From: Pseudomonas fluorescens
GTDB taxonomy: Bacteria > Pseudomonadota > Gammaproteobacteria > Pseudomonadales > Pseudomonadaceae
DNA length: 64,000 bases
Direction: 5' to 3'
Assembly: GCF_019212185.1 (NCBI RefSeq)
Contig: NZ_CP078138.1
Span: 1,408,501-1,472,500, forward strand
A model generated the notes under the pieces. The model was not told where the DNA came from, searched no databases, and saw only the letters and a program-made list of their open reading frames with translations. Positions 50,381 through 64,000 of this stretch are shown piece after piece (the stretch's first letter is position 1; every line of letters begins with the position of its first letter). The position numbers and the translations under genes were made by a program.

Positions 50381-50820
50381 TTACCTTGACGACCTTCTGA
50401 CTGAGGTCACTCCATGAGCAAGACACAGCTTGTCAGCGGCAGCATTTCACCGCTTTCTGTGTGGAAAGGTGTACCCATGTATGCATCACTATCTATGAAG
50501 CCGGGAGGGGAAAACTTGCCATCGCAATCGATTTCTTGGGTGCTTTTAGCTGGTCGGCGTTTTGAATTGATGTAGAGCCCAGGGACTCCAACGGCCGCAA
50601 TCTCTGTAGTGCGATTGCCCTCAATTAAAATGTCCGCTGACTCCCAGGGTGGTGCTCCAATGCCATCAATGATCGACAGTCCGCGAAGCACCATTCGATG
50701 ATAGGGGCCGTCACCGCGATCATTTTGGATCGCAGTATTAACCTGGCCGAGCCCTTTCTTGGCGAAACCCGCGACCATTTTTTCGCCAACCTCAATTGGC
50801 GCCGTTGTGCTTGTCTCCAC
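50381..50820 (-). pseudogene. Decayed amidohydrolase, N-terminal part only
   Basis: From a GTG at 50820 (AGGAGG just upstream) the frame reads an amidohydrolase start: YHRMVLRGLSIIDGIGAPPW, DILIEGNRTTEIAAVGVPG, QEIDCDGKFSPPGFIDSDAY. The metal-binding HxH of the family is gone (the text has DSDAYM where DSHAHM is usual). About residue 133 a small deletion shifts the frame; the next frame continues LAHGVTSVRRSSR and stops at 50381. The rest of the gene (300 or more residues) is absent. Confidence 0.78.
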
Positions 50821-50881
50821 AATGCCTCCTATTATTCTAATTTGAATCCACACCTACCCATCATTCAGGTTATTTAGGAGA

Positions 50882-52274: not shown

Positions 52275-53171
52275 TTAAATCGTAGTCGAGCGAATCAACT
52301 CAACTAGCGTTACCCAGCGATTAATACTCAAGTACTTAGAACTCCACACGATACCAATGTCCATGGTCGGTATTTTATCCGTTAGCATACGCCTCGAAAT
52401 ACGTTGTCCTTCAAGAGACCACGGGCGATACACAAAGTCGGACAAAATACTGACCCCTTGGCCTGCTGCGACCAAGCTACGCACTGCTTCAATAGAGCGG
52501 CTTTGCAGACGTACTTTTGGTTTAATCTCAAAAGGTGACCAGTAGCGATCAAGTGTGGAAATGTGTTCGTCCATATCAAGCAGGATGTAGTTGTGCCCTG
52601 CGACATCCTGCAATGAAATCTGCTCCGTGGCGATCAGTGGGTGCTCAGGGTGGGCCCAAAGTTGGCGAGTTGAACGAACCAATACTTCGTATTCCAAATC
52701 GTCGGAGATGGAGAGGTTGGACGTGAGCATGATCGCGAAATCCAACTCGCCTTTTCGCAGCCTTGATTCCAGCTCCTTTCGATCATGCTCCTCGCAAACC
52801 ACTTCCAGCATTGGAAATTTACGCTCAATGGAAGGAAGCAGTACCCCAATGAGGTAGGCGCTTATCGTTTCAGTCAGTCCGATTCTGACGGTGCCCTCAA
52901 GTTGTGTGGGTTGAACATGCAAGTCTTCAACCGCCTCGTCCAAGGCGTTCATGATGTTTTGGGCATTGCGCAGGAATCGCAAGCCAGCCGGGGTCAAACG
53001 CGTGCCTGACGCTTGCCGGTAAAATAGCTGCGTCTCTAGCGTTTTCTCCAGGCTCTGGAGGGAGGCGGTCATGGAGGACTGCGAAATATGGCAACGCAGA
53101 GCCGATTTGGAGACCTGACCCGTGTCTGCAAGTGCAATGAAATGCTGCAGTTGGCGGATGGTTGGCTTCAT
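52275..53171 (-). CDS. LysR-family regulator of the molybdoenzyme locus
   Basis: 298 aa from the ATG at 53171 (MKPTIRQLQHFIALADTGQV); a longer frame to 53285 would overlap the divergent gene. Winged helix with SKSALRCHISQSSMTASLQS and LFYRQASGTRLTPAGLRF, then a two-lobed effector domain of the NAC/Cbl-like kind. It diverges from the molybdoenzyme gene across a 103-base promoter, the usual layout for a LysR regulator and its target. The inducer is unknown. Confidence 0.9.
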   Translation of the reverse strand: MKPTIRQLQHFIALADTGQVSKSALRCHISQSSMTASLQSLEKTLETQLFYRQASGTRLTPAGLRFLRNAQNIMNALDEAVEDLHVQPTQLEGTVRIGLTETISAYLIGVLLPSIERKFPMLEVVCEEHDRKELESRLRKGELDFAIMLTSNLSISDDLEYEVLVRSTRQLWAHPEHPLIATEQISLQDVAGHNYILLDMDEHISTLDRYWSPFEIKPKVRLQSRSIEAVRSLVAAGQGVSILSDFVYRPWSLEGQRISRRMLTDKIPTMDIGIVWSSKYLSINRWVTLVELIRSTTI

Positions 53172-53274
53172 CGATTTTACCGATATTGGTCTTTCTAAAA
53201 TTTGAATTAGCAATAATGCGCCGGCTTGGAGAGCATAGCAACATGGCAATTTGAAGAATAAAAAGGAGCACATC
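53172..53274. promoter_or_regulatory. Divergent promoter between LysR and molybdoenzyme genes (copy B)
   Basis: 103 bases with the AAAAAGGAG ribosome binding site of the oxidoreductase at the right end. Comparing it with the diverged copy at 50882-51033 shows which bases are kept: GCCATGTTGCTATGCTCTCC, ATTATTGCTAATT and ATTTTAGAAAG are unchanged while the DNA between has drifted. Those blocks are the best candidates for LysR binding or promoter elements. Confidence 0.6.
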
Positions 53275-56200
53275 GTGTCGGCCAAGCTTATACGCGGTTA
53301 CTGCACCCTATGTAGATCCCGGTGCGGCACCTTGAACGAAGTTCAAGGCGATAACCTGATCGCAGTTCGTCCCGACTCCGAGCATCCAACGGGTAAGGCC
53401 ATGTGCCTGAAAGGCAAAGCTGCTCCTGAATTGGTCGATAACGCGGACAGGCTCCGCCATCCCATGCGCCGCACGCAGCCCAAGGGTGCCGCAGACCCAG
53501 GCTGGGTTCAAATTTCCTGGGACGAAGCGCTGGATGAAATTGCTGGCCGCATGGCCGATATCAAATCGCGTAGCGGCGCAGAGGCCTTTGCCTTTGGTGT
53601 AACGACGCCCAGCGGAACTCCCTTGAGCGACAGTATCGATTGGATTGAACGTCTGATTCGTCGGTACGGCAGCCCCAATACCTGCTACGCCACCGAAATT
53701 TGTAACTGGCACAAAGATTTTGCCCACATGTTCACCTTCGGCAGTGGTATGCCGGCAGCGGACTACGCACATGCGGGGCTTATCATGCTGTGGGGCCATA
53801 ACCCGACGAATACCTGGTTGGCCCAAGCCCATGCAATCGGAGAGGGAAGGCGTGCCGGGGCGAAGCTCCTTGTTGTTGATCCGCGGGAAACAGCTCTTGC
53901 CAAGCAAGCAGATGTCTGGCTTCGCGTGCGGCCTGGCAGCGATGCAGCGCTCGCCATGGGGATCGCGAACCTCCTGTTGAACAAAGGCGGATTCGATCAT
54001 TGCTTTGTTCAGACGTGGTCGAACGCGCCCGCTTTGGTGCGTTGTGACAACGGGCGTTTTCTGCGTGCTGATGACTTGGGTCTCAAGCCAGGGCATGAAC
54101 CGATGTATTGGGACAGCCTGCGTGAAGAAGCTGCTGTGCTGCCGCGAGCGGAAGCTGCCGAGGTTGCAATGGACTATCAAAACGCAACCTTGAGGGGGCG
54201 ATTCCAAGTCAGGACGAAGTCGGGGCTAATCGAATGCCAACCGGTGTTTGAACTTTATGCTCAGGCCTGTGCTGCTTACACGCCCAAGCGTACGGCTGAA
54301 TTGACTTGGGTGAGTGAAGAAGACTTGCACCAAGCAGCAACGCTCATCTCAGAGGCTTCGAGCGTCGCGTATCACTCTTGGTCGGGGGTAGGTCAGCAAA
54401 GCAATGCCACACAGAACGAACGAGCGATCGCGTGCCTCTATGCGTTGACTGGCAGTTACGACGCGGCGGGTGGAAATCAGATCTTACGCAAACCCCCTTA
54501 TCGGCCTGTGAGTGGTCTGGATCTTGTCCGAGAAGAACAGCGGGTCAAAGCTTTAGGGTATGACAAACGACCCTTAGGGCCTCCGGCACAAGGTTGGATT
54601 ACGTCGCGCGATCTCTACGAATCCATTACCACGGGCGCTCCCTACCGCGTCGAGGGCATGCTCGCTTTTGGCACAAACCTACTGTCCTCACACAGCGACA
54701 CCGCCTTGGGCATCGAAGCGCTGAAATCTCTCGACTTCTATGCTCATTGCGATCTGTTTTTAAATCCAAGTTCTCATTACGCTGACCTTGTTCTGCCGGT
54801 CAATACACCATGGGAACGCGAAGGACTACGTATTGGATTTGAAGTATCTGCAGAAGCTGAGCAGCATATTCAGTTGCGCCAGCAGATGGTTTCTTCCCGG
54901 GGAGAAGCCCGGTCGGATAATGATATCGTTTTTGCGTTGGTTAACCGTTTAGGTTTCGCTGATGATTTCTTTGGCGGAACACTTGAGCAAGGCTGGAACG
55001 CCATGCTTGAACCGTCCGGGTTGACCGTCGACGAACTGCGCAAACATCCGGAAGGTATTTCGGTCAGCGTCGTACAACAAAGCCATAAATATGGGAACAC
55101 GGGGTTTGCCACGCCCACGGGGAAAGTTGAGTTCTACAGTGAGCGGTTGCTAGAGCACGGTTACCCACCTCTCCCAAATTTTGTCGCTGAGCAAGACCTC
55201 ATGGCGACGGATAGTCACTTTCCCTATGTGTTGACCAGTGCGAAAAGTGGTTATTTTTGCCATAGCCAACAGCGCAGTGTGGCGAGTTTGAGGCGCAAGT
55301 CGCCATCGCCTTTATTGGACATTTCCTCTGAGTTGGCCTGGGAAAAAGGCATCGCTGATCAGGACTGGGTTCGCGTCACGACCCGCATGGGAAGTGCGAG
55401 ATTTCGCGCTAGACTCATTGATTCACTCCATCCGCGTGTGCTGGTCGGTGAGTTCGGCTGGTGGCAGAGTTGCGTCCCGCTCGGGCAGCCGGCAATGCGT
55501 GTCTTGGGTGAGGACAACAGCAATTACAACAGCCTGATCGATACTCAGCGTGTAGACCCCGTGAGCGGATCAGTACCTCTGCGCGCATTCACCTGCGATG
55601 TGTCCAGAGAAGCTAGCGAACAACTCCAGCCCTCACGATGGAAAGGCTATCGTCCGTTCGTCATCACTGCGTTGGACGCTCAAGGTGAAGATGTCACGCA
55701 AGTCTCCATGGAGCCGATTGATGGAGGACTGCTTCCCAATTATGAGTCCGGCCAACATGTGACCATCCGGCTGGATGTGACTGATCCTGACCAGGGATTG
55801 ATCACGCCGAGAACGATTGCTGTGCGTTCTTATTCCTTAACCGGGCCTGCTGTTGAGCCAGGTAAAAGCCAATACCAGATCGCTGTGCGTCATGCGAAAG
55901 CTCGCGGGCCAATGGGTGAGGATTGGGATGGTCTGGTCTCAAAGCACATCAACCAGCGATTGAAAATTGGCGACAGAGTAGAGCTTCAGGCACCCAGCGG
56001 AACATTCGTTATCCCTGTGCATTCATCACGTCCCTTGGTTTTTTATGCGGGCGGAATCGGCATCACTCCATTTTTGTGCGCGCTGGAAACCGCTGTCGCA
56101 GCGAAATCCAAGGCCGAGATGCTGTTGCTCTACGGTAATCGCAATCATCGAGGCCATGCATTTGAAAAGCGCTTAAAAGAACTTCAATTGCACCTGCCTG

Positions 56201-56706
56201 GATTGAAAATAATCAATGTTTACAGCGAGCCTGAAGTGGGTGCTGCTTTTAATGCTGATGTTATTCATGGGTATTTAAATCTTAATTTAGTTGAGGATAA
56301 TTGGATGGCCCGTCGTGCTCTGCACTATATGTGTGGGCCTCCCGTCATGATGAAGGCGCTGACAGAAGGCTTATTAAGCGCTGGTGTTCCTCGATTCGAT
56401 GTTTTCAAAGAAATATTCCGTTCCCCCATTGCTTCGAAAATCGAAGCCAACGGGGCATTTGAAATTACTTTCTCTCGTAGTGGGAGAACCCATACATGGA
56501 CAAGCGAGGCTGGGCCACTTCTCACATTTTCGGAAAACCTGGGTATTGAACTTCCTAGTGGTTGCAGGGTGGGTCAATGCGAAAGTTGTGCGGTAAGAGT
56601 TCTGAAAGGGGAAGTCAGCCATCTTCATGGTAGTGAACCGGAGGATCCGGAGATTTGCTTGGCGTGCCAAGCCATACCAACAACAAATCTGACGCTGGAT
56701 GCTTGA
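53275..56706 (+). CDS. Single-chain molybdopterin / flavin / 2Fe-2S oxidoreductase
   Basis: 1143 aa from the GTG at 53275, eight bases behind AAGGAG; a TTG at 53251 is possible but has no such site. N-terminal 4Fe-4S site (C10, C13, C17, C44), then a DMSO-reductase-type molybdopterin domain to about residue 780. A Cys in CYATEICNWHKD (C143) sits where the Mo ligand is expected. A ferredoxin-NADP-reductase-like part follows with RSYSLTG (FAD) and GGIGITPF (NAD(P)H), and a plant-type 2Fe-2S domain (CRVGQCESCAVRVL and CLAC) at the end. So electrons from NAD(P)H could reach Mo within one chain. The substrate is unknown; nitrate or N-oxide reduction or a ring or imine reaction are options. Resembles fused assimilatory-type reductases but not any enzyme I can name. 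Confidence 0.85.
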   Translation: MSAKLIRGYCTLCRSRCGTLNEVQGDNLIAVRPDSEHPTGKAMCLKGKAAPELVDNADRLRHPMRRTQPKGAADPGWVQISWDEALDEIAGRMADIKSRSGAEAFAFGVTTPSGTPLSDSIDWIERLIRRYGSPNTCYATEICNWHKDFAHMFTFGSGMPAADYAHAGLIMLWGHNPTNTWLAQAHAIGEGRRAGAKLLVVDPRETALAKQADVWLRVRPGSDAALAMGIANLLLNKGGFDHCFVQTWSNAPALVRCDNGRFLRADDLGLKPGHEPMYWDSLREEAAVLPRAEAAEVAMDYQNATLRGRFQVRTKSGLIECQPVFELYAQACAAYTPKRTAELTWVSEEDLHQAATLISEASSVAYHSWSGVGQQSNATQNERAIACLYALTGSYDAAGGNQILRKPPYRPVSGLDLVREEQRVKALGYDKRPLGPPAQGWITSRDLYESITTGAPYRVEGMLAFGTNLLSSHSDTALGIEALKSLDFYAHCDLFLNPSSHYADLVLPVNTPWEREGLRIGFEVSAEAEQHIQLRQQMVSSRGEARSDNDIVFALVNRLGFADDFFGGTLEQGWNAMLEPSGLTVDELRKHPEGISVSVVQQSHKYGNTGFATPTGKVEFYSERLLEHGYPPLPNFVAEQDLMATDSHFPYVLTSAKSGYFCHSQQRSVASLRRKSPSPLLDISSELAWEKGIADQDWVRVTTRMGSARFRARLIDSLHPRVLVGEFGWWQSCVPLGQPAMRVLGEDNSNYNSLIDTQRVDPVSGSVPLRAFTCDVSREASEQLQPSRWKGYRPFVITALDAQGEDVTQVSMEPIDGGLLPNYESGQHVTIRLDVTDPDQGLITPRTIAVRSYSLTGPAVEPGKSQYQIAVRHAKARGPMGEDWDGLVSKHINQRLKIGDRVELQAPSGTFVIPVHSSRPLVFYAGGIGITPFLCALETAVAAKSKAEMLLLYGNRNHRGHAFEKRLKELQLHLPGLKIINVYSEPEVGAAFNADVIHGYLNLNLVEDNWMARRALHYMCGPPVMMKALTEGLLSAGVPRFDVFKEIFRSPIASKIEANGAFEITFSRSGRTHTWTSEAGPLLTFSENLGIELPSGCRVGQCESCAVRVLKGEVSHLHGSEPEDPEICLACQAIPTTNLTLDA

Positions 56707-56726
56707 TTCAACCAGGAGTCAGAAAC

Positions 56727-56894
56727 ATGTACGAACCTAGAAGGAAAATAAAAATGCGCAGTACAAAGGTTCTTCCAACGTTGAATCAAGCAGAGCCGTC
56801 CTGCTGCTGTCTTGAGTCATGTCGTAGCAGCGGTTTTTTGCGTGACATTTCAAAAAGCCAACTCCAGTTGAGCATGCAAGGAGTACTAGCATGA
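56727..56894 (+). CDS. Tiny Cys-rich ORF coupled to the transporter gene
   Basis: 55 aa from the ATG at 56727 (CAGGAG six bases upstream). It ends in ATGA, sharing four bases with the start of the AtoE-type gene, so translation would be coupled. The centre reads EPSCCCLESCRSS, four Cys in seven residues, with basic residues before it. No family known to me. It could be a small metal- or thiol-responsive protein, a leader peptide that controls the transporter, or chance. Confidence 0.4.
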   Translation: MYEPRRKIKMRSTKVLPTLNQAEPSCCCLESCRSSGFLRDISKSQLQLSMQGVLA

Positions 56895-58339
56895 ACACTG
56901 AACGATTGAGTAATGTTGGGTATAAGAGCACTTCGGGCCGCTTAGAGCGTATTGCCATTTCGGTCAGTAATTGGTCGGAAAAATGGTTCCCCGAAGCCTA
57001 TATTTTTGCAGCGCTTGCCGTAATCGTCGTGACATTGGCTGCGATGTCCATGGGCGTTCCCTTGGTACAGGTCGCTCGTGGATTTGGCGATGGCTACTGG
57101 ACGCTGATTCCGTTCACGATGCAAATGGCTCTGGTAGCTATTTCGGGTTACATCGTCGCGGTCTCACCGCTCGCTTCACGATTGATCGACTCCTTGGCTC
57201 GCATGCCTCGCACTGCACGAGGTGCCGTGGTACTCGTGGCATGTGTGAGCTTGGGTACGTCGTTGTTCAATTGGGCGATCAGCTTGATCCTGAGTGGCTT
57301 ATTGGCCAAGGCCATGGCTCGACGCAACGACTTGCACCTAGATTACCGTGCAGCCGGGGCCGCCGCTTACTTGGGTATGGGCGCCACGTGGGCCTTGGGT
57401 CTGAGTTCGTCCGCTGCTCAACTGATGGCCAACCCAGCGAGCTTGCCGACAGGCCTCATTGAAATCAGTGGTGTCATTCCGTTTTCGGAAACGATTTTTT
57501 CTTGGCAATCGATGTTGATGACAGCGATTCTGATTGTGGTCTCCGTCGCAATCGCCTATTTCTCTACACCTACTGGAAATCGAGTTAAAACCGCCGCTGA
57601 TTTGGGTGTCGATCTGACTGAAATCAATTTGGTGGTCAGTAAACCTCAGCGTCCTGGTGAATGGCTCGAATACTCGCCGGTGATGACGGTTCTGGTGGTC
57701 TTGCTTAGCTCGCTCTGGCTTTACAGTGAATTCACCACTAAAGATCCAGTGCTCGCGATATCAAACCTCAATACGTATAACTTTCTGTTTCTGACGCTGG
57801 GTATGCTTCTGTGCTGGCGGCCAATCCGTTTTATCCGTGCCTTTGCCAAAGCCGTACCTTCGGTAGCAGGAGTACTGATTCAATTCCCACTCTATGGGGG
57901 CATTGCCTACATCATGACGAAGGCGGCCAACGTTGATGGCCAAACGCTTTCTCATGTGTTGGCGTCAGGGTTTGTTTCGGTCGCTTCATACGATACTTTT
58001 TCAGCGGTCATGGGGCTCTATTCCGCTATTTTGGGGTTTTTCATTCCATCCGGTGGCGGTAAGTGGCTGATCGAAGCACCTTATGTATTACAGGCGGCAA
58101 ATGAGCTGAAGGTCAATCTTGGCTGGTCGGTGCAGATTTACAATGCCGCCGAAGCGCTCCCCAATTTGATTAACCCGTTTTGGATGTTACCGCTACTAGG
58201 TGTTCTAGGATTGCGAGCCCGGGATATTGTTGGCTTTACGTTCACGCAGTTACTGGTGCATTTGCCGCTCGTATTATTTTTGTTGTGGTTCTTCGCCAGT
58301 ACGTTCCAATACATTGCGCCGGTAATTCCGGGTAAATAA
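56891..58339 (+). CDS. AtoE-type short-chain fatty acid transporter family protein
   Basis: 482 aa with about ten to twelve membrane segments. Family landmarks: WFPEAYIFAALAVIVVTLAA, LGTSLFNWAISLILSGLLAK, DYRAAGAAAYLGMGATWALG, and GFFIPSGGGKWLIEAPYVL near the end. AAGGAG precedes the ATG. AtoE is taken to import short-chain fatty acids such as acetoacetate or butyrate; here a different small carboxylate is likely, the one used by the following enzymes. It lies between the molybdoenzyme and the imine-reductase-like gene. Confidence 0.88.
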   Translation: MNTERLSNVGYKSTSGRLERIAISVSNWSEKWFPEAYIFAALAVIVVTLAAMSMGVPLVQVARGFGDGYWTLIPFTMQMALVAISGYIVAVSPLASRLIDSLARMPRTARGAVVLVACVSLGTSLFNWAISLILSGLLAKAMARRNDLHLDYRAAGAAAYLGMGATWALGLSSSAAQLMANPASLPTGLIEISGVIPFSETIFSWQSMLMTAILIVVSVAIAYFSTPTGNRVKTAADLGVDLTEINLVVSKPQRPGEWLEYSPVMTVLVVLLSSLWLYSEFTTKDPVLAISNLNTYNFLFLTLGMLLCWRPIRFIRAFAKAVPSVAGVLIQFPLYGGIAYIMTKAANVDGQTLSHVLASGFVSVASYDTFSAVMGLYSAILGFFIPSGGGKWLIEAPYVLQAANELKVNLGWSVQIYNAAEALPNLINPFWMLPLLGVLGLRARDIVGFTFTQLLVHLPLVLFLLWFFASTFQYIAPVIPGK

Positions 58340-58360
58340 ACAACTGTCCAGGCAAATGTT

Positions 58361-58386
58361 TAGGTGCTGTTTTATAACAGCATCTA
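58361..58386. other. Inverted repeat between transporter and reductase genes
   Basis: TAGGTGCTGTT and AACAGCATCTA pair around a TTAT loop with one G-T-type mismatch. No T-run follows, so it is not a simple terminator. It could be a processing or attenuation hairpin or an operator palindrome. Confidence 0.45.
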
Positions 58387-58456
58387 AAGCGCTTCGTCTG
58401 CATTGCCAACTATTACTGTTGGATGTGTATCGACAAAACTATAAACGGAGAATGAC

Positions 58457-59377
58457 ATGGCCGATAAAAAATACATCATCTGTGACAAGGCAGAAACCGC
58501 TGCGCTGCTGGATTTCGCTCAACTGACAGATGCAATTGAACAAGCGTCGCAGGAGTATACCCAGGGCCAGATTACCAGTCCGGAGCGTATGGTTGTGCCT
58601 ATGGCTTTAGGGGGAGTCATGCTGAGCATGCCCGCAGTCTCTGAAGATCTGGCGATTCATAAATTGGTTAACGTACAACCGAAGAATCGGGATCTCAATA
58701 TTCCAACGATTCACGGTCATGTTTCGGTTTATGACGCAGAAACGGGGAGCCCGTTGTTCATTCTGGATGGGCCTGAAGTCACGGGCCGTCGCACGGCGGC
58801 AGTAACCATGTTGGTGATCCGTACATTCAAGGAAGCTCTGCCAAAAGAAATTCTCATCATCGGCACCGGGACGCAGGCGACCTATCACTTGCAGGCGATT
58901 CAGGCGCTGTACCCAGAAAGTAAAGTTTGGATGCGTGGAATCAACGCAGCTGACGCTCAGCAATTCTGCACAACCAACCGTAGGGTACACCCTAATCTAC
59001 ATCCGTGTGTTGATGACGAGGTGCCAGAGACAGTCGATGTGATCATCACGTTGACCACTAGCACTGTGCCTGTCTACAACCAATCTGGACAAGTAGGAAG
59101 GCTTGTAGTGGGCGTTGGAGCGTTCAAACCAGAAATGGCTGAAATCGGAAAAAATACGTTGTTCAGCAGTGATATTTATATCGATGATCCAGCAGGGGCG
59201 AAGCATGAGGCTGGCGACCTGATTCAAGCTGGTATTGATTGGACTCAAACTCGATCCTTGGCTTCGGCCTTCACAGATACACCCGATCTGACTCGTCCGA
59301 TTGTCTTCAAAAGCGTGGGTACGGGTGCATGGGATTTAGCTGCCTGCCGCGTAGCACGAGCTAAATTGGGCGTCTAG
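58457..59377 (+). CDS. Ornithine cyclodeaminase family; probable pyrroline/piperideine-2-carboxylate reductase
   Basis: 306 aa, GGAG nine bases before the ATG. Fold of ornithine cyclodeaminase/mu-crystallin: HKLVNVQPKNRDLNIPTIHG with the substrate-binding Lys and Asn, LDGPEVTGRRTAAVTML, the nucleotide motif ILIIGTGTQATYHL, and VDVIITLTTSTVPVY with YIDDPAGAKHEAGDL. The HKLVNV...PTIHG and TGRRTAAV pattern is that of the LhpI-type reductases that turn 1-pyrroline-2-carboxylate into L-proline (or piperideine-2-carboxylate into L-pipecolate) rather than that of true cyclodeaminases. Its position before putA fits a proline-forming step. The specific activity is inferred. Confidence 0.82.
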   Translation: MADKKYIICDKAETAALLDFAQLTDAIEQASQEYTQGQITSPERMVVPMALGGVMLSMPAVSEDLAIHKLVNVQPKNRDLNIPTIHGHVSVYDAETGSPLFILDGPEVTGRRTAAVTMLVIRTFKEALPKEILIIGTGTQATYHLQAIQALYPESKVWMRGINAADAQQFCTTNRRVHPNLHPCVDDEVPETVDVIITLTTSTVPVYNQSGQVGRLVVGVGAFKPEMAEIGKNTLFSSDIYIDDPAGAKHEAGDLIQAGIDWTQTRSLASAFTDTPDLTRPIVFKSVGTGAWDLAACRVARAKLGV

Positions 59378-59716
59378 TAATCAGCTGATTGGTTTGTTGC
59401 GAAATCCCTCCAGTTGATTAAGTCGAGCCCTATATCGATGAGTTTATTAACTGGAGTTGTAAGCGCTGTTTTCTGAGCGCGTTAGTGATCGAGTTTAAAG
59501 AGTTGTTTTTATCTCTTTGTTAAGTGGTTTAACGGCCCTCGGAATCTGCGAGTTACAACTGGGTAATCAATCAGGTGGTTTCGCCAACTCCATGAGCGTC
59601 GGGGATTCTAATCGCGATTGTGTTTAGTTGGCCGTCGGGCCGATTGATCTCAGACCACATTCGCTTGCGATACATAAATTTTTAAAGTTCCTAGCAATAT
59701 TGCGGAGGGCACGACG
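59378..59716. other. Intergenic region before putA
   Basis: About 340 bases without a gene. Probably holds a promoter for putA; AT-rich stretches near 59440-59520. The GGAGG site at 59704-59708 belongs to putA. No operator could be assigned by eye. Confidence 0.4.
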
Positions 59717-62700
59717 TTGAACTATTTGAACGAGATGGTCGGTAAAGAGACTGGCGAACCAGGAAACATCATGCCCAATGACCTGCATGAGCCATTTGCT
59801 GAGTTTGCTGCAAGCATTCTTCCGCAGTCCGTTATGCGGGCAGCCATCACGGCGGCTTATCGTCGTCCAGAAACGGAAGTCGTGCCTATGCTGTTGGAGC
59901 AAGCCCGCCTTCCGGAAAAAATGGCAACCTCAGCCTGCGAGCTGGCGGCGTCCATCGCAGAAAAGCTTCGGAACCAAAAAAATGCAGGGGGGCGTGCGGG
60001 TCTCGTTCAGGGACTTCTGCAGGAGTTCTCTTTGTCCTCCCAAGAGGGCGTTGCACTGATGTGCCTGGCCGAAGCGCTGTTGCGGATTCCTGATAAGGGT
60101 ACCCGCGATGCACTTATTCGCGACAAGATCAGCTCTGGCGACTGGGGGCCTCACTTGGGTAACAGTCCGTCGATGTTTGTTAATGCCGCTACCTGGGGCT
60201 TATTGCTCACGGGAAAATTGGTATCGACTAACAGCGAAGCAGGGCTCACCTCGCTGCTTCGTCGGATCATCAGTAAAGGGGGAGAACCCCTGATCCGCAA
60301 GAGCGTGGATATGGCCATGCGCATGATGGGGGAGCAGTTCGTCACAGGGGAGTCGATTGCGCAGGCATTGAGTAATGCCAATCGTCTAGAGGAGGAAGGT
60401 TTTCGCTACTCTTACGACATGCTGGGCGAAGCGGCACTGAGCGAACACGACGCGCAGAGATACCTGGTGTCCTACGAGCAAGCAATCCATGCAATCGGTA
60501 AGGCCTCAAGCAACCGTGGTATTTATCAAGGCCCCGGAATTTCGATCAAGCTTTCTGCACTGCATCCACGTTACAGCCGTGCGCAGTATGGTCGGGTCAT
60601 GGATGAACTTTATCCCCGTCTGCTGTCGCTGACGTTGCTCGCCAAGCAATACGATATTGGCCTCAACATCGATGCTGAAGAATCCGATCGGCTCGAACTG
60701 TCGTTGGATCTGTTGGAGCGCTTGTGCTTTGAGCCGCAACTGGCAGGTTGGAACGGTATTGGGTTTGTGATCCAGGCTTACCAAAAACGCTGCCCTTACG
60801 TGATTGACTACGTGATTGACTTGGCTGAGCGCAGCCACCACCGCCTCATGATTCGTTTAGTAAAGGGGGCGTATTGGGACAGTGAAATCAAGCGTGCCCA
60901 AGTCGAAGGATTGGAGGACTATCCGGTTTACACCCGTAAGGTGTACACCGATGTTTCCTACATAGCCTGTGCGCGCAAACTGTTATCTGCCCCTGAGGCG
61001 ATCTACCCTCAGTTTGCCACGCATAACGCGCATACGTTGTCGGCCATCTACTATATTGCGGGCGACAATTATTACCCTGGCCAATACGAGTTTCAGTGTC
61101 TTCACGGAATGGGGGAGTCACTTTACCAGCAGGTCGTGGGCAAGGTGAGCGATGGGAAACTGAATCGCCCTTGCCGAATTTACGCTCCCGTGGGCACTCA
61201 CCAGACATTGCTTGCCTACCTGGTTCGCAGGCTGTTGGAGAACGGGGCGAATACATCTTTCGTCAATTTGATTGCTGACAAGTCAGTGTCAATCAAGGAG
61301 CTGGTCGCCGACCCGGTCAGAAAGATCGAAAGCCTTGCGCTGAAAGAGGGTGCCTTGGGTTTACCTCATCCTCGCGTCCCCTTGCCACGTGATCTGTATG
61401 GTGTCGAACGACCAAACTCGGCGGGCATCGATCTCGCGAACGAGCATCGCCTGGCGGCTCTGGCGGATGCGCTGGTTAGCACCACGCGTGCTGAATGGTT
61501 CGCTGCCCCCATGCTGGGCTGTTCAGCCAGTGACGGCAAAACGGAGGAGGTGCGTAACCCGTCCAACCTGCGTGATGTTGTAGGCCATGTTCAGCACGCA
61601 GATCTTGAAGATGTCAGCAACGCATTGGAGTGCGCGGTGCGCGCAGTTCCCGTTTGGCTGTCGACGCCGCTCAGTGAGCGCGCGGCCATTCTGGAGCGAG
61701 CTGCAACGCTGATGGAGGCTCAGACCCAGCCACTGATAGGACTGTTGGTGCGCGAGGCTGGAAAGACCTTTGCAAATGCCATTTCAGAGGTGCGAGAAGC
61801 GGCGGACTTCCTCAGGTATTACGCCGTACAGGCACGCAATGATTTCAACAACGACACCTACCTACCCTTGGGCCCAGTCGTTTGTATCAGCCCCTGGAAC
61901 TTCCCGCTGGCGATTTTTACAGGCCAGGTAGCGGCGGCGCTCGCGGCGGGTAATCCGGTGTTGGCCAAACCTGCTGCACAAACATCACTGATCGCGGCCC
62001 AAGCCGTACGATTGCTTCTGGAGGCAGGTGTACCTAAGTCGGCGTTGCAATTACTACCAGGAAGTGGACGCATTCTAGGTTCAGCAATGATCGCGGATGA
62101 GCGCGTGAAAGGTGTGATGTTCACGGGTTCCACCGAGGTAGCTCGCTCCTTGCAAGAGACCCTGGCCGGGCGTCTTGATGAGCGAGGTCGGCCAGTGCCC
62201 CTGATCGCGGAAACTGGCGGACAAAATGCGATGATTGTCGACTCGTCCGCGTTGACGGAGCAGGTGGTTTTCGATGTCATCACTTCTGCTTTCGACAGCG
62301 CGGGTCAACGTTGTTCAGCACTGCGAGTCCTGTGCTTGCAAGAGGACTCCGCTGACGACGTTATCGAAATGCTCAAGGGGGCAATGGCTGAGTACCGCCT
62401 TGGCAACCCAGATCGGTTGAGCGTTGATATCGGGCCCGTCATCGATAGCGGCGCCAAAGCGGGCATTGAAAAACACATTCAATCGATGCGCACCAAAGGG
62501 CGAAATGTTTATCAGATCGCAATCGCAAACACCGAAGAAACTCGACGTGGGACTTATGTCATACCGACGCTGATTGAACTGCAAAGTATCGAGGAGCTGG
62601 AGCGAGAGATTTTCGGGCCAGTCTTACACGTTGTTCGGTACGCGCGTAAGGAGCTGGATCGCTTAGTGGATCAAATCAACAATTGTGGCTATGGGTTAAC

Positions 62701-63523
62701 ATTAGGCGTTCATACGCGCATTGATGAGACTATCGCCAAGGTCGTAGACAACGCCCACGTGGGGAACATCTACGTGAACCGCAACGTTGTCGGCGCAGTT
62801 GTTGGTGTGCAGCCGTTTGGTGGAGAGGGGCTCTCAGGAACGGGGCCAAAAGCTGGTGGCCCGCTGTACCTGTACCGCCTTCTCTCGGCACGTCCAGTCA
62901 ATGCAATTTCGAGTTCATTTCAACGCAACAGCTCGTTTTGCAAGACGAATGTATCCGAACGTTCATTTGATTCTGCGCCGATCGATGAATTGAAAAAATG
63001 GGCCGCAGACAATAAAAGGTTAAGCTTGGTCGGGCTGTGTGTTCACTTTACACAGCAATCTCAAAGTGGCGTTACCCGAGTGCTGATGGGCCCAACCGGT
63101 GAGCGTAATAGCTATATTTTGCTTCCGCGCGAACAAATTCTGTGCCTGGCTGAGATTGAGGACGATCTCCTGATCCAATTGGCTGCGGTATTGGCGGTTG
63201 GTAGTCGTGCCTTGATAGTCGCCAACGCTAAAAGTCGTGCGCTTATTAGTCGATTGCCTCCTTCGGTTCAGGCGAGAATTCTTACGGTCACAGACTGGAA
63301 GATTCACGATGTGAAATTCGATGCAGTATTGCACCATGGCGATTCAAATGAACTTCGTGAAATTTGCCGAACGGTTGCTCAACGAAGTGGAGCGATTATC
63401 AGTGTGCACGGACAATCGAAAGGAGAAACTGATATTGCGCTGGAACGATTACTGATTGAACGTTCTGTGAGTGTCAACACAGCTGCTGCGGGTGGTAATG
63501 CCAGTTTGATGACCATCGGTTGA
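59717..63523 (+). CDS. putA: Bifunctional proline dehydrogenase / glutamate semialdehyde dehydrogenase without DNA-binding domain
   Basis: 1268 aa from a TTG at 59717, set by a GGAGG eight bases upstream; an ATG at 59735 is the alternative. After a short start the chain enters the PutA body (SILPQSVMRAAITAAYRRPE, proline dehydrogenase barrel about 220-520 with GPGISIKLSALHPRY and MIRLVKGAYWDSEIKRAQ, then the aldehyde dehydrogenase with ISPWNFPLAIF, ETGGQNAM and the catalytic Cys in DSAGQRCSALR), and a C-terminal domain of about 170 residues. Pseudomonas PutA normally begins with a ribbon-helix-helix repressor domain of about 50 residues; here it is missing. The enzyme turns proline into glutamate via pyrroline-5-carboxylate. 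Confidence 0.93.
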   Translation: MNYLNEMVGKETGEPGNIMPNDLHEPFAEFAASILPQSVMRAAITAAYRRPETEVVPMLLEQARLPEKMATSACELAASIAEKLRNQKNAGGRAGLVQGLLQEFSLSSQEGVALMCLAEALLRIPDKGTRDALIRDKISSGDWGPHLGNSPSMFVNAATWGLLLTGKLVSTNSEAGLTSLLRRIISKGGEPLIRKSVDMAMRMMGEQFVTGESIAQALSNANRLEEEGFRYSYDMLGEAALSEHDAQRYLVSYEQAIHAIGKASSNRGIYQGPGISIKLSALHPRYSRAQYGRVMDELYPRLLSLTLLAKQYDIGLNIDAEESDRLELSLDLLERLCFEPQLAGWNGIGFVIQAYQKRCPYVIDYVIDLAERSHHRLMIRLVKGAYWDSEIKRAQVEGLEDYPVYTRKVYTDVSYIACARKLLSAPEAIYPQFATHNAHTLSAIYYIAGDNYYPGQYEFQCLHGMGESLYQQVVGKVSDGKLNRPCRIYAPVGTHQTLLAYLVRRLLENGANTSFVNLIADKSVSIKELVADPVRKIESLALKEGALGLPHPRVPLPRDLYGVERPNSAGIDLANEHRLAALADALVSTTRAEWFAAPMLGCSASDGKTEEVRNPSNLRDVVGHVQHADLEDVSNALECAVRAVPVWLSTPLSERAAILERAATLMEAQTQPLIGLLVREAGKTFANAISEVREAADFLRYYAVQARNDFNNDTYLPLGPVVCISPWNFPLAIFTGQVAAALAAGNPVLAKPAAQTSLIAAQAVRLLLEAGVPKSALQLLPGSGRILGSAMIADERVKGVMFTGSTEVARSLQETLAGRLDERGRPVPLIAETGGQNAMIVDSSALTEQVVFDVITSAFDSAGQRCSALRVLCLQEDSADDVIEMLKGAMAEYRLGNPDRLSVDIGPVIDSGAKAGIEKHIQSMRTKGRNVYQIAIANTEETRRGTYVIPTLIELQSIEELEREIFGPVLHVVRYARKELDRLVDQINNCGYGLTLGVHTRIDETIAKVVDNAHVGNIYVNRNVVGAVVGVQPFGGEGLSGTGPKAGGPLYLYRLLSARPVNAISSSFQRNSSFCKTNVSERSFDSAPIDELKKWAADNKRLSLVGLCVHFTQQSQSGVTRVLMGPTGERNSYILLPREQILCLAEIEDDLLIQLAAVLAVGSRALIVANAKSRALISRLPPSVQARILTVTDWKIHDVKFDAVLHHGDSNELREICRTVAQRSGAIISVHGQSKGETDIALERLLIERSVSVNTAAAGGNASLMTIG

Positions 63524-63645
63524 GGCCGGATCGATAAGGGGGCTTCTATTGGAGCTTCCTTAGCGATTTCTTAATCGGAGAACTTAAATTTGGATAGCGG
63601 CACAAAGCAAGTCCAGCATAAAAATAGAATTCCCTGTCCTAGGCT

Positions 63646-64000
63646 ATGGTGATTGAAATGTCAGGTCGCACATTAGTGGACGCGTTCTCTCGGCGGATCG
63701 ATTACTTAAGGATGTCGGTAACAGATCGCTGCGATTTTCGTTGCGTTTACTGTATGACTGAAGAGATGGAATTTCTGCCACGAAGCCAGATTTTGAGACT
63801 GGAGGAAATTTATCGTGTCGCCGAAAGTTTTGTCGCTTTAGGAACCCGCAAAATCAGGTTGACCGGGGGGGAGCCTCTGATACGTCCGGGTGTTGTGGGC
63901 CTGTGTGAACGTATAGCCGCTCTACCAGGCTTGAAGGAACTGTGCATGACCACTAACGGTTCACAGTTAAAAAGGCTTGCGCAGCCACTGATCGATAGTG
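63646..64000 (+). CDS. moaA: GTP 3',8-cyclase MoaA (partial, runs off the window)
   Basis: First 118 codons from the ATG at 63646 (a second in-frame ATG at 63658 is possible; neither has a strong ribosome binding site). The radical-SAM signature [11 protein letters not shown] holds the CX3CX2C cluster, followed by TGGEPLIRP, as in all MoaA proteins. MoaA makes the first molybdopterin precursor. It follows putA by 122 bases on the same strand, close to the molybdoenzyme gene, which suggests it supplies that enzyme. The rest of the gene is outside the window. Confidence 0.93.

Follow-up and report, generated by a model that had tools for sequence, protein, structure and literature searches.

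We analysed a 64,000-nucleotide window of the Pseudomonas fluorescens genome (contig NZ_CP078138.1, positions 1,408,501 to 1,472,500) and found in its last part (52275-64000) a LysR regulator gene on the minus strand and, divergent from it on the plus strand, the genes for a single-chain molybdenum/FAD/2Fe-2S oxidoreductase (in the following, the fusion), an AtoE-type transporter, an LhpI-type cyclic-imine reductase, a PutA and a MoaA. All six genes, which an earlier note on this DNA had described in this arrangement, were confirmed by their coordinates and by Pfam and curated-model scores. A general pathway in which an imported acid would be converted by the molybdenum enzyme to a cyclic imine, and further via proline or Delta1-pyrroline-5-carboxylate (P5C) to glutamate, is well supported by comparison with other genomes and probable. 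The locus is best explained as an inducible operon for the catabolism of a monocarboxylate, most likely pyrrole-2-carboxylate (P2C), which would be reduced by two electrons to a Delta1-pyrroline-carboxylate; we give this more specific explanation an even chance of being correct. The demonstrated basis of these proposals comprises the gene content, the domain composition, the conserved neighbourhood and the exchange of the partner enzyme.

Organization of the locus

The features of the locus, in window coordinates, are the following.

52275..53171, minus strand: LysR-family regulator (PF03466 and PF00126), divergent from the fusion, ATG start at 53171
53172..53274: intergenic sequence between the LysR and fusion genes, presumed operator/promoter
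53275..56706, plus strand: single-chain oxidoreductase with molybdenum-bis(pyranopterin guanine dinucleotide) (Mo-bisPGD), [4Fe-4S], FAD-NAD(P)H and [2Fe-2S] parts (Pfam domains), proposed ring reductase
53701..53703, plus strand: Cys151 of the fusion, predicted molybdenum ligand, motif E-I-C-N-W-H-K (PDB and homologue alignments)
56506..56682, plus strand: C-terminal plant-type [2Fe-2S] ferredoxin domain of the fusion (PF00111, residues 1086-1144)
56891..58339, plus strand: carboxylate transporter of the AtoE/short-chain fatty acid (SCFA) type (PF02667, 300 bits)
58457..59377, plus strand: LhpI-type Delta1-pyrroline-2-carboxylate (Pyr2C) / Delta1-piperideine-2-carboxylate (Pip2C) reductase (NF045512, 458.3 bits, cut-off 400)
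59717..63523, plus strand: second PutA, proline dehydrogenase plus L-glutamate gamma-semialdehyde dehydrogenase (TTG start after GGAGG; NF008772)
63646..64000, plus strand: second copy of MoaA (GTP 3',8-cyclase), running about 656 bases beyond the window end

The open reading frame (ORF) of the fusion spans 53251-56706 on the plus strand (1151 codons), and its likely start is the GTG at 53275, judging from the 1143 amino acids of the 99% identical protein P0001. A scan of the LysR-fusion intergenic region (53172..53274) found no sigma-70-type site. The transporter, which is recognized by the broader PF02667, scores 294 bits with TIGR00366 (SCFA subgroup), below the cut-off of 576.

A conserved neighbourhood around the fusion

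The fusion or a relative (E <= 1e-100, own genome counted) occurs in 6 of 398 sampled genomes of the genus of the window and in 6 of 369 sampled genomes of its class. At stricter limits, a phylum sample yielded the fusion in 4 of 398 genomes (own genome counted), and the family to which Cupriavidus basilensis KF708 belongs yielded it in 57 of 398, a count that includes the own genome and a few shortened copies; the order of this strain gave matches in 12 of 399 genomes, 11 of which cover the molybdenum part only. Plasmid matches amount to 39 records, including Rhodococcus, Agrobacterium, Phaeobacter, Sphingobium and enterobacteria, and among all 39 no second actinobacterium with the fusion was found.

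After removal of L119, L145, L153 and L173 as duplicates of L056, L027, L030 and L057, 98 loci were kept. In 91 of them the flanks reach 4.5 kb or more to either side, and 84 of these 91 are fused. Partners were called by best BLAST match above minimum identities of 40% for OCD2 (to the Rhodococcus opacus protein), 45% for AtoE, 42% for LysR and 38% for P5C dehydrogenase (P5CDH), and curated models were applied to those of the window, eight other OCD proteins, the ProC of L064, the MoaA of L059, the LDH2-type protein of L159 and the dehydrogenases of L168 and L046. Within 4 kb of the fusion, 65 of the 84 fused loci encode an AtoE-type transporter, 62 a LysR regulator at least 42% identical, and 57 a cyclic-imine reductase (51 OCD2, four LhpI, one ProC and one DpkA-like LDH2); 55 of the 65 AtoE-bearing loci also have an imine reductase inside this distance. 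A distance test was made on a different set of 84 loci, fused and unfused, that extend 7 kb to either side; the window, with 6.25 kb on one side, is not among them. Of these, 53 loci have their nearest OCD-type gene within 3 kb and none at 3-9 kb; for AtoE, the corresponding numbers are 62 and none, which argues that the neighbourhood is not due to chance.

The conserved unit elsewhere thus appears to consist of LysR, fusion, imine reductase and AtoE. The earlier note had proposed carboxylate uptake and a molybdenum enzyme leading through a cyclic imine and proline to glutamate, encoded by a six-gene unit; the comparison supports the sequence of steps, but the neighbourhood search rejected the six genes as a conserved unit, and PutA and MoaA appear to be additions in the lineage of the window. 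That note had also named as an objection that the reductase and PutA might work in an ordinary proline pathway beside an unrelated molybdenum enzyme; an ordinary hydroxyproline pathway would be a further possibility of this kind. OCD-type Pyr2C reductases do belong to trans-3-hydroxyproline use, according to the accessible part of PMC4113996, and the lack of PutA and MoaA as conserved neighbours would also suit such a coincidence. Yet no 3-hydroxyproline dehydratase, of either the proline-racemase or the aconitase-X type, was found by Pfam among the six proteins, and the reductase stands next to fusion and AtoE in the 55 of 65 loci mentioned above, its type being exchanged while the slot stays filled. 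We therefore consider an ordinary pathway very improbable; the objection is answered in part, in that the reductase accompanies the fusion in different families and the PutA is an extra copy without DNA-binding part.

Outside this conserved setting, several relatives have other neighbours. The idea that the same cassette surrounds unfused relatives of about 780 amino acids was rejected, as no reductase or AtoE was present in the printed part of 11 Burkholderiales stretches (L080-L090), in two of which the ORF picking had missed the molybdenum gene itself. Loci L082-L090 encode unfused molybdenum proteins of about 760-830 amino acids without partner genes, which are 45-49% identical to the molybdenum half of the fusion and, by their sequences, appear to be a separate subfamily. 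In a fusion clade from Leclercia, Enterobacter and Klebsiella (L025, L045, L055), no imine reductase or AtoE was found nearby; these fusions adjoin metal P-type ATPases or metal regulators (in L025 by eye), L025 and L055 also have an OprD-like porin, and the clade probably has another role. The early-branching fusions of L169 and L177 group with those of Phaeobacter and Tritonibacter; hydantoinase A/B-like genes (by eye) in the vicinity of L169 and L177 may indicate another substrate class. In Brucella pituitosa and Agrobacterium cucumeris, genes of a branched-chain amino acid-type ABC transporter (by eye) adjoin the fusion, and AtoE was not seen. The distant copies at L059:1-5900 and L053:12700-20000 have orotate-type genes next door (annotated in L053, by eye in L059), namely dihydroorotate dehydrogenase with its electron-transfer subunit, an amidase and a major facilitator superfamily transporter. 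Directly beyond AtoE, one Pseudomonas genome carries a nitrilase-like gene (L060:4828-5751; 159 bits, under the cut-off of 503), and the acid could conceivably arise from a nitrile.

Exchange of the partner enzyme

The slot beside fusion and AtoE is filled by four reductase types, LhpI, OCD2, DpkA-like LDH2 and ProC, and in one locus by a P5C dehydrogenase instead. LhpI and OCD2 are only about 25-30% identical, and both of their models (NF045512 and NF004793, respectively) are named bifunctional Pyr2C/Pip2C reductase. NF045512 identifies LhpI in the window and in L024; among eight OCD proteins tested from other loci, seven score above the NF004793 cut-off and one (Stutzerimonas) above that of NF045512. 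In the PDB, the R. opacus OCD protein is closest to a Delta1-pyrroline-2-carboxylate reductase and to 7rbp, presumably a plant pipecolate-pathway enzyme. Inspection by eye of AtoE loci with no known reductase nearby pointed to only two further candidates for the slot, the LDH2-type gene of L159 and the P5C dehydrogenase of L168. The former lies between AtoE and fusion, and the best PDB match of its product is Delta1-piperideine-2-carboxylate reductase (239 bits vs 128 for the next). L064, an early-branching copy, has ProC in the slot (216.9 vs a cut-off of 196.75), and L168 of the same small clade has P5C dehydrogenase (TIGR01236, 804 vs 614); L167, the sister of L168, has AtoE and neither ProC nor P5CDH. 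In a FastTree phylogeny of 95 sequences, from which three rows with a molybdenum ORF below 700 amino acids had been removed (as also for the motif count below), the LhpI, LDH2 and ProC/P5CDH types branch separately from one another, amid rows with OCD2 or without a partner, with low support at several deep forks.

From what is known of their families, the slot enzymes would act on Delta1-pyrroline-2- or -5-carboxylate or on the six-ring homologue. Pyr2C and P5C are double-bond isomers at the level of P2C plus two hydrogens, and both are two hydrogens short of proline. Since a single fusion family would, depending on the clade, supply either Pyr2C reductases or P5C enzymes, a P2C reductase is the simplest reading. 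Both the OCD and the LDH2 fold are known for Pyr2C reduction, as the accessible part of PMC4113996 describes reductases of both types, which occur in neighbourhoods of proline racemase-family genes.

Oxidation of proline, too, would lead to either imine in a single two-electron step, and the partner enzymes would be compatible with a fusion that serves as an NAD+-linked dehydrogenase of D-proline or an analogue, with LhpI converting Pyr2C to L-proline and this stereo-inversion feeding PutA. This appears rather improbable, as D-proline is handled by simple flavoenzymes that make a molybdenum protein unnecessary, an SCFA-type carrier would be odd for a zwitterion, and a ProC beside a proline-oxidising enzyme, as in L064, would be futile. 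The family and PDB names of LhpI, OCD2 and DpkA-type reductases include Delta1-piperideine-2-carboxylate as a substrate, which would allow a six-ring version of the pathway from picolinate or another pyridine-type acid via Pip2C to L-pipecolate. We regard this version as quite improbable: it would require two successive reductions, and the PutA, ProDH/PruA, ProC and P5CDH neighbours (ProDH, proline dehydrogenase) belong to a five-ring pathway.

Domain architecture and conserved residues of the fusion

According to Pfam, the fusion is composed of a [4Fe-4S]/Mo-bisPGD part, followed by FAD/NAD and plant-type 2Fe-2S domains. It belongs to the dimethyl sulfoxide (DMSO) reductase family (PF00384, 129 bits, cut-off 24; PF01568, 69 bits, cut-off 26.8), and its homologues bear generic names only among the matches listed. 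More specific assignments were rejected, as scores stayed far from the respective cut-offs for formate dehydrogenase (TIGR01591, 231 vs 666 bits), for the nitrate reductases NasC (NF047855, 141 vs 1100) and NapA (TIGR01706, 68 vs 931) and for the thiosulfate reductase PhsA (187 vs 694). The closest PDB sequences are acetylene hydratase (best, 177 bits), thiosulfate reductase and formate dehydrogenase, and Cys151 aligns with a cysteine in all three. No signal peptide was apparent by eye, which, together with the built-in NAD(P)H module, suggests a cytosolic NAD(P)H-linked enzyme.

A residue alignment of the window fusion with 46 of the 120 listed homologues (47 sequences in total) revealed invariant [4Fe-4S] cysteines, Cys151 and the four ferredoxin cysteines, as well as the residues R-x-Y-S and G-x-G of the reductase module. 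Cys151 is followed by NWHK in the 61 ungapped LhpI-, OCD2- and LDH2-linked rows; where ProC or P5CDH is the partner, and in L166, L167 and L170 of the same clade, the residues after the corresponding cysteine are GWHK. This difference would represent one evolutionary event, which may or may not matter for the reaction.

The family membership also brings to mind the deoxygenation of a proline-type ring oxidised at the nitrogen, such as a Pyr2C or P5C nitrone, from which the same downstream pathway would follow. Oxygen-atom transfer is the classical reaction of this family and typical of S- and N-oxide reductases; a nitrone acid is no zwitterion, and reductases and PutA would be accounted for equally well. 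We nevertheless hold it to be unlikely: cyclic nitrone acids are rare in nature, as far as we know, the predicted molybdenum ligand is a cysteine instead of the serine typical of DMSO and trimethylamine N-oxide reductases, and the P5C- and Pyr2C-type partners would require two different nitrones.

Proposed reduction of pyrrole-2-carboxylate

In the pathway that we favour, AtoE would import P2C, and the fusion would reduce the pyrrole ring by two electrons, which could pass from NAD(P)H via FAD, [2Fe-2S] and [4Fe-4S] to the molybdenum. In the main clade, reduction at C4-C5 would give Pyr2C, and in the deep clade with ProC or P5C dehydrogenase, reduction at C2-C3 would give P5C. LhpI would convert Pyr2C to L-proline, the additional PutA, freed of its DNA-binding part, could take proline to glutamate, and the additional MoaA may supplement the cofactor supply. 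The reactions of LhpI, OCD2, DpkA-like enzymes, ProC, PutA and MoaA are assigned from family knowledge; we infer the substrate, the direction of the molybdenum reaction, the electron path, the cargo of the transporter, the role of the extra MoaA and any inducer of LysR. An SCFA-type carrier would suit a non-zwitterionic acid without basic amine better than proline-like zwitterions, and the extra copies of PutA (without DNA-binding part) and MoaA are further arguments in favour. We tentatively propose that the fusion is a P2C reductase of the DMSO reductase family, which performs an NAD(P)H-driven dearomatisation in two regiochemical versions, yielding Pyr2C (CNWHK) or P5C (CGWHK), and opens an O2-independent route to glutamate via proline or P5C in Pseudomonas, Burkholderiaceae, Alphaproteobacteria and Rhodococcus; for this proposal as a whole, we put the chance slightly below even.

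Several observations weigh against this proposal. The open-access literature covered yielded no assay of any protein of this type. To our knowledge, the nearest enzymes of the DMSO reductase family are not known for ring reduction. The first step would be uphill, because aromaticity is lost: in the accessible part of PMC12899673, the oxidation of 3,4-dehydroproline by E. coli ProC, with P2C as the predicted product, is irreversible or nearly so, presumably by aromatisation. The second reduction must therefore pull the first, in keeping with the close pairing of the reductase with the fusion. This pairing has gaps, as 10 of the 65 AtoE-bearing fused loci are without a reductase inside 4 kb (one has P5CDH) and 19 of the 84 fused loci lack AtoE, for example the enterobacterial copies beside metal-transport genes. 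Deeper relatives adjoin hydantoinase-like, ABC-transporter (by eye) or metal-transport genes, which suggests that other substrates occur in the wider family. Only single instances of ProC, P5CDH and the LDH2-type gene were seen, the LDH2-type protein of L159 exceeds no curated cut-off (best: sulfolactate dehydrogenase, 160 vs 500), and CGWHK is shared by L166, L167 and L170, which have neither ProC nor P5CDH. The R. opacus proline dehydrogenase-like protein described below stays under the Thermus-type cut-off (212 vs 500), and its gene and that of PruA lie on the opposite strand, 5-6 kb off. In the window itself, the 340-bp gap upstream of PutA and a terminator-like hairpin before moaA (63535-63562; sites of this kind are not enriched relative to shuffled sequences) argue against a single transcript.

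If the proposal is true, it would add a new reaction to the DMSO reductase family, the hydride-type reduction of an aromatic N-heterocycle, and a reductive route for pyrrole-2-carboxylate. It offers a testable function for a molybdenum/FAD/2Fe-2S fusion that was matched in 57 of 398 sampled genomes of one large family, and the locus clearly illustrates how a single operon slot is occupied by four kinds of reductase. Should the substrate be a different one, the logic leading from imine to proline would still restrict the candidates to a handful of compounds.

Additional PutA and MoaA copies and the link to proline

The window PutA contains the proline dehydrogenase (PF01619) and P5CDH (PF00171) domains and scores 2294 bits with NF008772 (cut-off 1750), which matches it only from profile position 71. 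The other putA of the genome (C1:656249-660040) has a full N-terminus and adjoins a putP-like gene (putP by eye). Both copies are 77% identical, and residue 1 of the window protein aligns to residue 62 of the other, so that the window PutA appears to be without the N-terminal DNA-binding part, the autogenous repressor; a GGAGG directly precedes its TTG start. PutA-like matches (E <= 1e-250) were found in 17 of 19 searched genomes, with two matches in the window genome and one in each of the other 16. The window MoaA is complete beyond the window end (336 amino acids, L004:16646-17656) and scores 374.4 bits with TIGR02666 (cut-off 284.05); of the moaA-like genes in the genome, two lie above this cut-off and a third slightly below (271). 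The window MoaA is 58% identical to the second moaA product and 66% to that of the moaA following AtoE in L059. Among the surveyed loci, PutA is a neighbour of the fusion only in the window and in Pseudomonas arcuscaelestis (L022), and a moaA lies downstream on the same strand only in the window (after PutA), in L059 (after AtoE) and in the molybdenum-only L067 (4.7 kb away).

The P. arcuscaelestis locus (L022:10004-12673) has a fusion missing its first approximately 262 residues, and its AtoE, LhpI and the on-contig part of PutA are 93-95% identical to those of the window. Between AtoE and LhpI it carries an OprD-type porin gene, which is absent from the corresponding window gap; in this gap, we noticed by eye a 13-bp inverted repeat with one G-T pair and a 4-base loop (58359-58388). 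Elsewhere in the window, an OprD porin (PF03573; 48634-49986, minus strand) is 45% identical to the L022 porin, and upstream of it lies a short ORF (50407-50853, minus strand) that resembles an amidohydrolase piece by eye and gave no Pfam match.

In R. opacus, a proline dehydrogenase-like gene and a PruA gene, whose product passes TIGR01236, lie near the fusion-OCD-AtoE set. The locus family would thus touch proline catabolism independently in two unrelated hosts, through PutA in the window and through the proline dehydrogenase-like protein and PruA in R. opacus, in addition to the ProC and P5CDH of the deep clade. Each contact is weak alone; taken with the reductase slot, all of them lead in the same direction. 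The core imine-to-proline idea of the earlier note gains strength from the four reductase types and the one P5CDH in the slot and from these Rhodococcus genes. Its wide list of candidate substrates can be narrowed, by inference, to P2C, for which specifically the case stands evenly balanced. Its description of the locus as self-contained, with its own cofactor gene, is only partly right and overstated, because moaA alone does not make the molybdenum cofactor.

Comparison with known systems

No description of this pathway was found among the matches listed from the open-access literature, an absence that is weak, as subscription journals are mostly outside it; in the same literature, neither the term 'pyrrole-2-carboxylate reductase' nor 'molybdopterin' together with 'pyrroline-2-carboxylate' occurs. 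One candidate, PMC10667639, mentions a Pyr2C reductase mutation and, by its accessible part, is unrelated. The 2026 paper PMC12899673, in its accessible part, describes the microbial metabolism of P2C as known, yet little understood.

With the trans-3-hydroxy-L-proline pathway, which comprises a dehydratase, Pyr2C reductase and proline catabolism (PMC4113996, accessible part), the proposed route shares Pyr2C, an OCD- or LDH2-type reductase and the product L-proline; in place of a dehydratase gene, we find here the molybdenum/FAD/2Fe-2S fusion and an SCFA-type carrier. The fusion has the Mo-bisPGD fold, the N-terminal [4Fe-4S] motif and the predicted cysteine ligand in common with acetylene hydratase, thiosulfate/polysulfide reductase and formate dehydrogenase, but differs from them by FAD/NAD and 2Fe-2S domains in one chain, by an asparagine instead of a histidine after the cysteine and by its cyclic-imine partner genes. 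The window PutA shares the proline dehydrogenase and P5CDH domains of the E. coli-type trifunctional PutA and lacks the N-terminal 61 residues of the other genomic copy. For P2C itself, a flavin-dependent oxygenase of Arthrobacter Py1 (a reference in the accessible part of PMC12899673) and HudA, a decarboxylase dependent on prenylated flavin mononucleotide (PMC7976604, accessible part), are known. These enzymes oxygenate or decarboxylate the ring, whereas the fusion would reduce the same proposed substrate without O2 and direct it to proline.

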